Assembly (NCBI GenBank): GCA_028280115.1
Contig: JANQMJ010000010.1
Coordinates: 100,226-164,225 of the forward strand
DNA length: 64,000 nt
Direction of reading: 5' to 3'
Source of the DNA: Parvularculaceae bacterium
GTDB lineage: Bacteria > Pseudomonadota > Alphaproteobacteria > Caulobacterales > Parvularculaceae
Shown here piece by piece: positions 36,799 to 61,150 of the stretch (within the stretch, counting starts at the first letter, position 1; the number at the start of each line of letters is the position of its first letter). Both the position numbers and the translations under genes were made by a program. Under the pieces are notes generated by a model, which ran no database searches, was not told the DNA's origin, and worked only from the letters and a program-made list of their open reading frames with translations.

Positions 36799-37146
36799 GG
36801 ATTAGGTGTTAGGTTTTAGGGATTAGGTTGCAGGTTGCAGGTTGCAGGTTTTAGACCTTCGGGCGATTAATGTGCATCGCTTCGTCCTCTCGCCTGGGCG
36901 AAGCGATTTCTGTTTTTCGCCGAAGCTTTAAGACTGGATTCCGGCTCCTCATCCTGAGCTTGCCGAAGGGCGCCGGAAAGAGCGGTTGGAAAGGTCTGTG
37001 ATTCAGAATAAAAATCGGAAGGTTTATTCCCTATTCCCTATTCCCTATTCCCTATTCCCTATTCCCTATTCCCTATTCCCTATTCCCTATTCCCTATTCC
37101 CTATTCCCTATTCCCTATTCCCTAAAACCTAAAACCTAATCCCTAT
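36799..37146. repeat. Heptanucleotide repeats forming inverted arms between rppH and atpC
   Basis: The left arm (36799-36853) is a run of 7-mers: GGATTAG, GTGTTAG, GTTTTAG, GGATTAG, three GTTGCAG, GTTTTAG. The right arm (37026-37146), read on the minus strand, is GGATTAG, GTTTTAG, GTTTTAG and then 14 exact copies of GGAATAG (98 bases, 37026-37123). About 32 bases of the arms pair with two mismatches. The 170 bases between hold a GGATTCCGG-type dispersed hairpin (36930-36980). No gene is present. The last bases overlap the atpC stop. Confidence 0.9.
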
Positions 37147-37538
37147 ATCGCCGCCTGAACCTCTTTGAGCCGGTCAAGCGTCTCCTGGGCGGTCAGTTTT
37201 TTTTTATCATTTTCCGCGTCGGCGAGATCTTCTTCGGCGTCCTTGATGCGGCGGGCGATTTCATCGGCATCGAGCGCATCGGCGGGCGTTGCTTCTTCCG
37301 CCAGCACCGTCAGACCGGCCGGGGACATCTCCGCAAAGCCGCCGCGAACGAAAAAGCGGGTCTCCTCCCCGCCATTGACGATGCGCAGCATACCCGGCGC
37401 CAGCGCGGTCATCAGGGGGGCGTGGTTCGGCAACACGCCGATCCATCCTTCCGTCCCCCGAATGTCGACCTGGTCGACATCGGCGGACATCAATTGCCGT
37501 TCCGGCGAAACGAGGTTGAAATGAAGTTTGTCAGCCAT
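37143..37538 (-). CDS. atpC: ATP synthase F1 epsilon subunit
   Basis: The central-stalk subunit that couples rotation and can inhibit ATP hydrolysis. 131 residues: an N-terminal beta sandwich (LHFNLVSPERQLMSADVDQV, GVLPNHAPLMTALAPGMLRI) and a C-terminal two-helix hairpin. Last gene of atpHAGDC, 94 bases after atpD. The gap holds a second heptad-repeat structure. Its stop codon abuts the repeats at 37146. Confidence 0.95.
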   Translation of the reverse strand: MADKLHFNLVSPERQLMSADVDQVDIRGTEGWIGVLPNHAPLMTALAPGMLRIVNGGEETRFFVRGGFAEMSPAGLTVLAEEATPADALDADEIARRIKDAEEDLADAENDKKKLTAQETLDRLKEVQAAI

Positions 37539-58158: not shown

Positions 58159-58488
58159 TCAAAACGGCAGCTTCATGCCCGGCGGAAGGGGAAGACCCGC
58201 GGTCATTTCTTTCATTTGCTCTTGAGACTGGGTTTCCAGTTTCGCCTTGGCGTCATTGATCGCCGCGGCGACGAGGTCTTCGAGAATTTCGCCGTCGTCT
58301 TCTTTTAAAAGCCCGCGCTCAATGGCGACGGCCTTGGCGTAGCCCTTGCCGTTCAAGACGACCTTGACCATGCCGCCACCGGCCTCGCCGGTCACTTCAA
58401 GCGCGGCGAGCTTTTCCTGCATTTCCTGCATCTTGGCCTGCATCGCGCCAGCCTGTTTCATGATTTCGCCGATATCCATTTTACTCAT
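58159..58488 (-). CDS. ybaB: YbaB/EbfC nucleoid-associated protein
   Basis: A 109-residue DNA-binding protein that forms tweezers-like dimers: a long helix MKQAGAMQAKMQEMQEKLAAL, GGGMVKVVLNGKGY, and LEDLVAAAINDAKAKL. Normally between dnaX and recR. Here a methyltransferase separates it from dnaX (overlapping ATGA) and three genes separate it from recR. Confidence 0.94.
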   Translation of the reverse strand: MSKMDIGEIMKQAGAMQAKMQEMQEKLAALEVTGEAGGGMVKVVLNGKGYAKAVAIERGLLKEDDGEILEDLVAAAINDAKAKLETQSQEQMKEMTAGLPLPPGMKLPF

Positions 58489-59186
58489 CCGTTTTCAGCG
58501 CCGGAGGGCGCATCGTCATCGAACTCATATAGGCACACAAAACGGTTATTGCCCGAATACGCGCAGTTTTCTTCTCTGACGGCCTCGACCATAGATTCTG
58601 CGAGATCGAAAGGCGGCAAGTTGAGATTGATTTTGTAGAACCCCCAACCGTCAATTTGCACGAAATTTCTCACCTGATCTTCTCCGGTGAAACCGAGAAA
58701 CGATGTAGAAATGAGATATCGTGCGCTCTTTTTCGCACGCTCGACAACGCCGACGGCCAGCGCTTGCGGCAGATGGAACAAAACATCTCGCGCAATGATG
58801 AGATCGACGCGCGGCATCGCATTGGCGGTGATGTCCTTGACCTTGAAGGAAATACGCTCCCGCCCATAGTCCGCATTCAATTGGTCGATCGCCTTTTCAT
58901 TCGCGTCCCAACCCTCATAGGCGACATTGAGATTTTCGCCGAGATCGGGAAGACCGAGACGCCGCATCCAATGCCAATCGCCGCAACCAAGATCGAGGAT
59001 CGAACGGATATTGCGGCGTATGACAGTGTTGCGAATAAGCTCAAGCGATTCCTTCGCCGAATGCAGACTGCTGCCGGGACCGGAGGCGGATTCCCAGCGC
59101 CCCTCGGCCTTTTTGCGCAAACCGAGCTCCACGAACTCTTTCGCAGCTCGAAACATACGCTGATGCTCGTCCATCATCTTATCCAA
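58485..59186 (-). CDS. Class I SAM-dependent methyltransferase
   Basis: A 233-residue Rossmann methyltransferase. SAM motif I is ILDLGCGDWHWM (near residue 60) and motif II YEGWDANEKAI. RVDLIIARDVLFHLPQAL follows as motif IV/post-motif. No substrate domain is recognised, and the substrate is unknown. It fits tightly between dnaX (4-base gap) and ybaB (4-base overlap), so it belongs to that operon even though it is not part of the usual cluster. Codon use is slightly less GC-rich than that of dnaX. Confidence 0.83.
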   Translation of the reverse strand: MDKMMDEHQRMFRAAKEFVELGLRKKAEGRWESASGPGSSLHSAKESLELIRNTVIRRNIRSILDLGCGDWHWMRRLGLPDLGENLNVAYEGWDANEKAIDQLNADYGRERISFKVKDITANAMPRVDLIIARDVLFHLPQALAVGVVERAKKSARYLISTSFLGFTGEDQVRNFVQIDGWGFYKINLNLPPFDLAESMVEAVREENCAYSGNNRFVCLYEFDDDAPSGAENG

Positions 59187-59190
59187 ACCG

Positions 59191-60972
59191 TTAGCCCGTC
59201 GATTCTGAATTTGCGTCCGTGTTGTTCACAACAACATCGTCAGGATCAACCGGACGCTCGGCTTCATTTTCATCGGGCGCGGGCTCGGCCGTCGCGGCCG
59301 GCTCACGAATGGCGGTCACTTCCGCGCCGGGAAAGACCTCCAGCGCCTTTTTGACCAACGGGTCGGCCATCACCTCGGCAAGGCGCGCATCGCGCAGCGT
59401 CTTTTCGCCTTCTTCATTGGCGTTGACGGAAACGATCCATTGCCGTCCGGTCCACGCCTTAAGCGCTTGCGTCAGCCGCCCGGCGAGATCGGCGGGCGCA
59501 TCGGCATGCAGGCGTAGTTCGATATGGCCCGGCGCGAAAGACACAAGATGCACGTAGCTTTCAAGTTCGGTGCGCATTTTTGCGTCGCGCTGGGCCCCGG
59601 CGAGGCGAACGACGTCGGAAAAGCTGTTCAGGACGACATTTTGCGGCGCGCGCGCGCGCGCGGCCTCGAGCAGCGCCCCCTGACGGTCGCCCGCCGCCGG
59701 CGCGCTTTTTCCGCCTAATTCCGTATCGGCACTATTTTTTTTTAAGGCTTTAAGCGCCTCGTCGGGGGTCGGCAGATCGGCCGCAAAGCAAAGCCGGATC
59801 AGCGCCATTTCTCCCACGGCGGCGGGATCGGGCGCGATATTGGTTTCGCCAAGGCCCTTCATCAGGAGCGCCCAGGCGCGGGTGAGCGCGTTCATTTCAA
59901 GCCCGCCGGCTATCGTGTTGGCGCGTTCGGCGTCGGCGGCGCCGGCGGGTCCGTGCGCGGCCGCTTCCGGGCCCGCCGCCTTGATGCGCGTTAAAAGATG
60001 GATGAGGTCGAGCATGTCGCGCAGGATCACCGGCGGCTCGGCGCCGGCGTCATACTGGGCGCGAAACCCTTCCAGCGCCGCCTTGGCGTCGCCTTTAAGG
60101 GCCGCATGAAGCAATTCCCAGACGCCGGTGCGGTCGGCGAGCCCGAGCATGTCGCGGATCATCTCCGCGCCGACTTCTTCAGCGCCCTCTTTCTGACTGA
60201 TATGCGCCGCATGCTGAACGATCGCCTGGTCGAGGATCGACAAGGCGTCGCGCACCGATCCTTCCGCCGCCCGCGCGATCATCCACAATCCCTCGCGGGA
60301 AACGCTCACATGTTCCTTTGCGGCGATCCCGGCGAGATGATCGGTCAGGGTTTCCGGATCGATGCGGCGCAAGTCGAAACGCTGGCAGCGCGACAGCACC
60401 GTCACCGGCACTTTGCGTATTTCCGTCGTCGCGAAAATGAATTTCACATGAGGCGGCGGTTCTTCCAGCGTCTTTAACAGCGCGTTGAACGCCGCCGTCG
60501 ACAGCATGTGCACTTCGTCGATGATGTAGACCTTGTAACGCGCCTCGATGGGCGCATAGCGCACGCCCTCGATCAGCTCGCGAATATCGCCGACGCCGGT
60601 GCGCGAGGCGGCGTCCATTTCCAGAACGTCCGGATGGCGGCTTTCGGCGATCGCCCGGCAATGGCGGCCCTCGGCCGGCATTTCCATTTGCGGGCCGTTA
60701 TCCTCGCCCCCATTGTCGCCTGAATCCGGGCCCGCATAGTTGAGCGCCCGGGCGAGAATGCGCGCCGTCGTGGTTTTCCCCACGCCTCTGACGCCGGTGA
60801 GGATATAGGCGTGGGCGATGCGGTCCGCGGCGAAGGCGTTTTTGAGCGTCTTCACCATGGCCTGATGGCCGATCAGATCGTCAAAGCTTTGCGGGCGGTA
60901 TTTGCGCGCCAGCACCTGGTAGGGGCGCGCCTTGTCCGCAGTGGCGTTGTTATCGACCGGAAGATCGCTCAT
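59191..60972 (-). CDS. dnaX: DNA polymerase III subunits tau (and predicted gamma)
   Basis: The clamp-loader ATPase. 593 residues: Walker A at 60-67 (GVRGVGKT), DEVHMLS Walker B, the SRC-box-like TVLSRCQRF, an AAA+ lid and collar domain III to about 370, then a variable tau C-terminus. The four-Cys zinc site of the E. coli protein is reduced to one Cys (GRHCRAI). At codons 410-413 an A9 run is followed in the -1 frame by TAG, so a 413-residue gamma-like form is predicted. First gene of dnaX-methyltransferase-ybaB, downstream of the SRP RNA gene. Confidence 0.95.
   Translation of the reverse strand: MSDLPVDNNATADKARPYQVLARKYRPQSFDDLIGHQAMVKTLKNAFAADRIAHAYILTGVRGVGKTTTARILARALNYAGPDSGDNGGEDNGPQMEMPAEGRHCRAIAESRHPDVLEMDAASRTGVGDIRELIEGVRYAPIEARYKVYIIDEVHMLSTAAFNALLKTLEEPPPHVKFIFATTEIRKVPVTVLSRCQRFDLRRIDPETLTDHLAGIAAKEHVSVSREGLWMIARAAEGSVRDALSILDQAIVQHAAHISQKEGAEEVGAEMIRDMLGLADRTGVWELLHAALKGDAKAALEGFRAQYDAGAEPPVILRDMLDLIHLLTRIKAAGPEAAAHGPAGAADAERANTIAGGLEMNALTRAWALLMKGLGETNIAPDPAAVGEMALIRLCFAADLPTPDEALKALKKNSADTELGGKSAPAAGDRQGALLEAARARAPQNVVLNSFSDVVRLAGAQRDAKMRTELESYVHLVSFAPGHIELRLHADAPADLAGRLTQALKAWTGRQWIVSVNANEEGEKTLRDARLAEVMADPLVKKALEVFPGAEVTAIREPAATAEPAPDENEAERPVDPDDVVVNNTDANSESTG
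59732..59745 (-). promoter_or_regulatory. A9 slippery run in dnaX with -1 stop (programmed frameshift candidate)
   Basis: Minus-strand TTA AAA AAA AAT AGT in the tau frame. One extra A in the transcript, or a -1 ribosomal slip, reads TTA AAA AAA AAA TAG. The product would end after residue 413, just past domain III, matching the size logic of E. coli and Thermus gamma. Confidence 0.6.
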
Positions 60973-61052
60973 GGGGCGTTATTATGCGGGCTTGAGACGC
61001 GCGGATCAAAGGCGGCGGGCGGTCCGGGGAAAATTAGTCGAAGAAAATTAGT

Positions 61053-61143
61053 GGAAGGCTGAAACGACCCGCGCCGAAACTCGTTACGGCTGCTTCCTTC
61101 CGGACCTGACCGGGTTGGCGAGGAGCGCGTCCGCCAGCCTTCC
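61053..61143 (-). ncRNA. ffs: Signal recognition particle RNA (small bacterial type)
   Basis: About 91 nt. The SRP hallmark GGTCAGGTCCGGAAGGAAGC, followed by AGCC, is present on the minus strand, giving the conserved GGAA tetraloop hairpin and asymmetric loop that bind Ffh. The ends GGAAGGCTG (61143-61135) and CAGCCTTCC (61061-61053) pair perfectly and define the gene limits. It lies just upstream of dnaX, a widespread arrangement. Its receptor FtsY is encoded at 18.6 kb. Confidence 0.95.
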
Positions 61144-61150
61144 GCGAGGG

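Follow-up and report, generated by a model that had tools for sequence, protein, structure and literature searches.

Why bacteria keep a short form of the clamp-loader subunit DnaX beside full-length tau is unsettled, and the reviews consulted use Thermus as the worked example of RNA polymerase slippage as its source. The window analyzed here, a 64-kb stretch of DNA from a Parvularculaceae bacterium, carries a dnaX gene with nine consecutive adenines (A9) inside its reading frame, raising the question of whether this run is a site for making such a short form. In Thermus thermophilus, dnaX undergoes transcriptional slippage on an A9 run, with stops in both shifted frames (Larsen et al. 2000, as cited in PMC1088944 and PMC5009743). 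In Caulobacter crescentus, gamma forms are cut from tau by ClpXP (PMC5009743, PMC5422525, PMC7566177), and its dnaX is described as having no frameshifting site (PMC7566177). According to PMC3290774, frameshift signatures in dnaX are not maintained by most other bacteria. A described alphaproteobacterial dnaX slip site was not found in the open-access literature searched, including PMC3711429, which is no proof of absence. Judging from sequence comparison, the A9 run of the window's dnaX is probably a conserved site of transcriptional slippage that would give a gamma-type subunit beside tau.

The gene is identified as dnaX by matches above cut-off to the AAA+ domain, the lid, domain III and the tau C-terminal domain in Pfam and NCBIfam (Table 1). 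Codons 410-414 read TTA AAA AAA AAT AGT, and reading of the ORF bears out the initial annotation, which had placed the A9 in the tau frame at these codons with a -1 TAG directly after it. Its prediction of a 413-residue product ending just past the AAA+/collar domains also held, as in silico extension of the run to ten As (A10) gives 413 residues ending in LKKK, and domain III ends at residue 410 in Pfam. Shortening the run to eight As (A8) gives 418 residues, while adding or removing three As retains the tau frame. The tau frame runs open for another 180 codons past the A9, and no zero-frame stop of the kind expected in a two-ORF dnaX lies right after the run. Domain borders were taken from Pfam and from PDB sequence matches. 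The domain III model (DNA_pol3_gamma3) covers residues 267-410 and DUF3646 covers residues 448-555, with the A9 run between them, and solved E. coli gamma/tau cores align to the window's DnaX up to residue 404-406. Because domain III ends at 410 and the tau domain starts at 448, the short product would hold the clamp-loading part and no tau-only domain. In the neighborhood of the gene, a bacterial small SRP RNA gene (RF00169) lies just upstream at 61048-61145 on the minus strand. Between dnaX and a ybaB-type gene (58159-58488) lies an ORF of 233 aa (58485-59186, minus strand), which matches a methyltransferase below threshold.

Table 1. Positions in the window of dnaX, its adenine run and the predicted short products
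Feature	Position	Strand	Basis
dnaX, tau frame, 593 aa	59191..60972	-	ORF; Pfam PF13177, PF22608, PF12169, PF12362; NCBIfam NF006585 above cut-off
A9 slip run, codons 410-413 (TTA AAA AAA AAT), phase 2	59735..59743	-	Identical in 26/26 readable genus genomes
TAG stop reached immediately in the A+1 (-1) frame; predicted product 413 aa	59732..59734	-	Stop within 0-2 codons in 26/26
TAG stop in the A-1 (+1) frame; predicted product 418 aa	59715..59717	-	Distance 4-27 codons across 26 genes
Part of dnaX coding for the predicted gamma-type product, 413 aa	59734..60972	-	In silico A10; end of domain III at residue 410
Tau-only C-terminal domain (DUF3646, residues 448-555), missing from the short product	59308..59631	-	Pfam

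In the proposed mechanism, RNA polymerase likely adds or drops As along the run, and a share of the mRNAs would meet a stop right past it, yielding the gamma-type subunit beside the 593-residue tau. Tau would be translated from transcripts with nine As or with a number of As differing from nine by 3n, and the short form from transcripts of all other lengths.

Conservation was assessed in a family search of 62 genomes from nine genera, with 28 genomes in the window's own genus and 34 in the other eight. A readable dnaX linker was obtained from 26 of the 28 genus genomes, the exceptions being G041 and G045, in which no dnaX linker was found. The dnaX of L033 is identical to that of L113, and L033 was omitted from the genus counts and from the tree described below. 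All 26 readable genomes carry exactly nine As in the same phase with the tau frame open. Read in the A+1 frame, 8 genes have a stop directly after the run, 17 after one codon and 1 after two codons; the stop is TAG in 12 genes, TGA in 12 and TAA in 2. A stop this close in the A+1 frame is found at 10.7% of codon positions in the dnaX genes of the genus, compared with 26 of 26 at the run. The A-1 frame is closed 4-27 codons past the run in all 26 genes, and both shifted frames thus have nearby stops. The codons downstream of the A9 vary among these genes. The initial annotation had proposed asking whether relatives with varying flanks still share the A run and the -1 stop. The window's genus passes this test, since all 26 genes retain A9 and meet a -1 stop no more than two codons later. 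Stops that are always present yet differ in kind and place point to upkeep rather than mere descent. Beyond the genus, 30 of the 34 genomes, from seven genera, gave dnaX (G003, G013, G014 and G017 did not, G017 being the sole genome of its genus), and a run of even seven As is absent from the 210-nt dnaX linker in all 30 readable genes.

Codon choice at the run is considerably more constrained than the encoded peptide. The Leu codon preceding it is TTA in 20 genes and CTA in 6, although these two codons account for 5.7% of the other Leu codons in the same genes. Both Lys codons are AAA in 26/26, compared with 59% AAA among Lys codons elsewhere in these genes. Codon 413 is AAT in 14, AAC in 11 and AAG in 1, and it stays AAN where Asn becomes Lys, indicating that its two As are retained despite the residue change. 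Among 34 conserved Leu columns, that of the run alone is entirely xTA, the next column reaching 40%; among 13 conserved Lys columns, the run's two and one other are all AAA. The longest nucleotide stretch identical in every aligned dnaX of the genus is TA9 (10 nt), the next longest being 5 nt. These genes are otherwise well diverged: the pairwise amino-acid identity of DnaX has a median of 74% (range 62-97%), and the third codon position of residues shared by two genes differs in a median of 45% of cases.

Such conservation could also arise if the run were kept for the peptide LKKN, for a slow poly-Lys folding stretch or for a DNA or RNA A-tract, with the frame change as a side effect. The residues L, K and K are indeed conserved in 26/26, but the codon choice is fixed far beyond the needs of the peptide. 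A run kept for these purposes needs no -1 stops, yet all 26 genes have them, at varying places. This explanation is therefore considered improbable, and peptide-level conservation as the cause is rejected by the codons used at Leu, Lys and AAN.

The abundance of long A runs by itself argues little. The initial annotation had called a nine-A run notable in such GC-rich DNA, a statement weaker than it sounds, as A runs in the window occur at shuffled level, the eight-A pattern having 5 matches in the 64-kb window against 3.76 in shuffles. Six A9 runs are present in the 2.99-Mb genome, counting both strands. One of them lies in atpC (named from sequence; 37143-37538, minus strand) as an in-frame A9 at 37197-37205 near the 3' end. 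It is retained in 1 of the 26 genus genes covering that place, and this lack of conservation made it the control for the dnaX run, which is retained in 26 of 26. A chance run without function, the reading favored by the shuffled-level frequency in the window, is hardly credible in view of this contrast and of the 0.22 A9 runs expected from shuffles in the 26 genus linkers where 26 were observed. The genus comparison and the atpC control refute it as far as conservation goes. By raw count the dnaX A9 is no more than chance, and by conservation it is beyond chance. The 26 genes are related, and nominal probabilities treating them as independent overstate the case; the argument rests on these contrasts instead. 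A third in-frame coding-strand A9 of the same genome is located at C29:150435-150443 (L273), in a 191-codon ORF that no search identified.

The distribution of the run was then surveyed in an evenly drawn class sample of 143 alphaproteobacterial genomes, each at least 80% complete, which gave 135 DnaX genes; the order of G108, whose dnaX has such a site, comprises a single genome. Of 134 loci not belonging to the window itself, 129 were fetched (G067, G072, G130, G142 and G201 were left out), and 126 of these were analyzed as linkers of 210 nt each. The 126 linkers hold 13 A9 and 6 A10 runs against 1.8 and 0.6 in shuffles (19 against 2.4). Conversely, shorter runs are not in excess, with one A8 against 3.5 expected and nine A7 against 7.6 expected. 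Upstream of the linker, the dnaX genes of this sample (141,747 nt in total) contain no A9, one A10 and one A11. Run-bearing lineages are mostly AT-richer, and the shuffles take composition into account. The A9 and A10 runs fall in 18 genes. In 15 of them, the tau frame is open and stops occur in both other frames (within 16 codons for A+1 and 12 for A-1), whereas the remaining three (L240, L250 and L252) reach a zero-frame stop after 2-5 codons and carry the tau C-terminus in the A+1 frame. Nine or more consecutive As also occur in three of 79 other named loci (L083, L102 and L111); in L083 and L102 the run is an A9 in the same phase as that of the window, and a -1 stop follows one codon later.

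In a FastTree phylogeny of 262 DnaX cores, for which two loci were too short, presence of the run requires 14 changes of state, of which well-supported branches force 8. The number of gains is unsure, since several long branches come together in this phylogeny. The window's genus forms one clade (25 rows, support 93). The enclosing clade (support 99) adds nine rows, including records titled Caulobacteraceae, Maricaulis and Hyphomonas, and the run is present in none of these nine.

Two further families carry the run throughout the loci read. Family f46 (the family of G105, loci L274-L303) comprises 48 genomes, 46 of them with DnaX, of which the best 30 were read. The run is located at one place in 30/30 of these best 30 of 46, as A9 in 29 and A10 in one, with an A+1 stop one codon on in each. 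Ten of these best 30 of 46 loci carry, 11 to 26 codons downstream, an additional run of 9 or 10 As that lies in a different phase. The sole A10 locus bears on the idea of a phase-variable (contingency) run, in which changes of DNA length would switch tau on and off. An A9 can in principle mutate by replication slippage, but the A10 locus of f46 (among the best 30 of 46) retains an open tau frame and all 26 genus genomes have A9 with tau open, making this explanation very improbable. It was rejected because no off-phase allele occurs among the 26 genus genomes.

Family f7 (the family of G066, loci L305-L319) comprises 17 genomes, 15 of them with DnaX, all 15 of which were read. The run is A9 in 7 and A10 in 8; in all 15 the zero frame closes 2-4 codons later, while the A+1 frame is open for 64 to 186 codons. 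In L240 and L252, the translated A+1 frame holds tau C-terminal sequence, and the other 13 were judged by the open frame alone. Production of tau in f7 would thus depend on slippage. The family shares the two-ORF layout of Antonov et al. 2013, in which, according to PMC3711429, the shift is required for tau, whereas in the window it would be required for gamma. The poly-A site of those two-ORF genes, mostly A10, is aligned in PMC3711429 with the Thermus motif, a likeness that extends to the window's run.

Whether slippage would occur in transcription or in translation was weighed on the same data, as both would give the same protein from this gene. In programmed -1 ribosomal frameshifting of the E. 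coli kind, ribosomes would slip at A_AAA_AAA and make the 413-residue product from unaltered A9 mRNA. This heptamer is present in frame in dnaX, and the sole Lys tRNA among the 40 tRNA genes found has the anticodon UUU, as in E. coli. The list of tRNA genes may be incomplete, since tRNA-Ile is missing from it. Nine As are nevertheless conserved in 26/26, two beyond the seven of the heptamer, and the class-wide excess begins at nine As, not at seven or eight. Stimulatory elements were also sought. GAGG, which would serve as an upstream Shine-Dalgarno-like stimulator, is present in 16 of the 26 genus genes, but this is the codon-usage background (p 0.12) and it is missing in 10/26, so that no conserved upstream element was found in the genus. 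Downstream, the 50 nt past the run have a somewhat lower absolute folding energy than windows elsewhere in the gene (mean z -0.86), a difference accounted for by composition. Measured against shuffles in single-strand folding, the mean z is -0.55 compared with -0.46 for other windows of the gene, and no conserved downstream hairpin was found in these genes. Ribosomal frameshifting is accordingly regarded as unlikely. The excess starting at nine As, together with the lack of conserved ribosomal stimulators, favors transcriptional slippage. The Thermus layout assigned to the site in the initial annotation fits the sequences better than that of E. coli, the length being held at nine, no stimulator being conserved and close stops lying in both frames.

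The window's site resembles that of Thermus in having tau in one open frame, a sense-strand A9, close stops in both other frames and a predicted short product without the tau C-terminus. It differs in position, as the Thermus run lies seven-eighths along the gene (PMC1088944) and the window's run at codon 413 of 593. Thermus also has two tRNA-Lys species, which PMC5009743 suggests may explain its use of the polymerase, whereas one, with anticodon UUU, was found in the window's genome; the two-tRNA-Lys argument for polymerase slippage does not carry over. Slippage is demonstrated in Thermus and predicted in the window's genus. The E. coli dnaX, which uses -1 ribosomal frameshifting at A_AAA_AAG, shares with the window a slip site past domain III and a -1 stop directly after it, although the window's run is longer. 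E. coli also has an upstream Shine-Dalgarno-like element and a downstream hairpin according to PMC3711429, while neither is conserved beyond background in the window's genus. Transcriptional slippage is hence the preferred reading of a site that is real, conserved and arranged like a transcriptional slip site. From the site we infer the product, including slippage itself, its occurrence in transcription rather than translation, its yield and a role of the short protein in clamp loading.

Caulobacter belongs to a related lineage and likewise has a short DnaX form beside tau, which in the window's genus is predicted; in Caulobacter the form arises by proteolysis, whereas in the window's genus it would arise at a slip site. 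The window's site thus represents a Thermus-type case in a lineage with a best-studied relative that makes its short form differently. Linker composition also differs within the family. Glycine makes up 6.0% of the linker in the window's genus, half of the 12.6% in the other family genera, and GGG occurs in 1/26 linkers compared with 12/30. In the class sample, GGG is present in 0 of 13 readable linkers with the run (of 18) and in 36 of 91 readable linkers without it (of 111). Glycine tracts help ClpXP to stop. Gly-poor linkers would fit the loss of a proteolytic route, with composition and shared descent as confounders.

The structural arrangement of this gene carries a wider significance: a genus related to Caulobacter, where proteolysis makes the short form, preserves no nucleotide stretch of its dnaX more strictly than a slip signal resembling that of Thermus. 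The threshold at nine As serves as a sequence sign of transcriptional slippage. A broader reading is put forward tentatively: it is possible, if somewhat doubtful, that several alphaproteobacterial lineages independently evolved a polymerase slip site of 9-10 As at this one domain border in place of ClpXP cutting, and that the essential tau of one entire family or more exists only through miscopying by RNA polymerase. If the site in the window's genus works as predicted, selection would act on having both DnaX forms and not on one way of making them. The sets of dnaX genes with, without and with inverted sites allow slippage and proteolysis to be compared.

Several further loci of the survey are of note. 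At the end of the 401-codon DnaX frame of L246 (G161), A5G5 is followed by immediate zero-frame stops while tau-like sequence goes on in another frame, perhaps reflecting a mixed-homopolymer slip site or an assembly error. The 427-codon DnaX frame of L245 (G116) also ends early, with tau-like sequence in another frame and without a long A run, which may reflect a slip site or a sequence error. In L109, L263 and L266, DnaX is short (about 420-430 codons), with a mere C-terminal remnant before the next gene.
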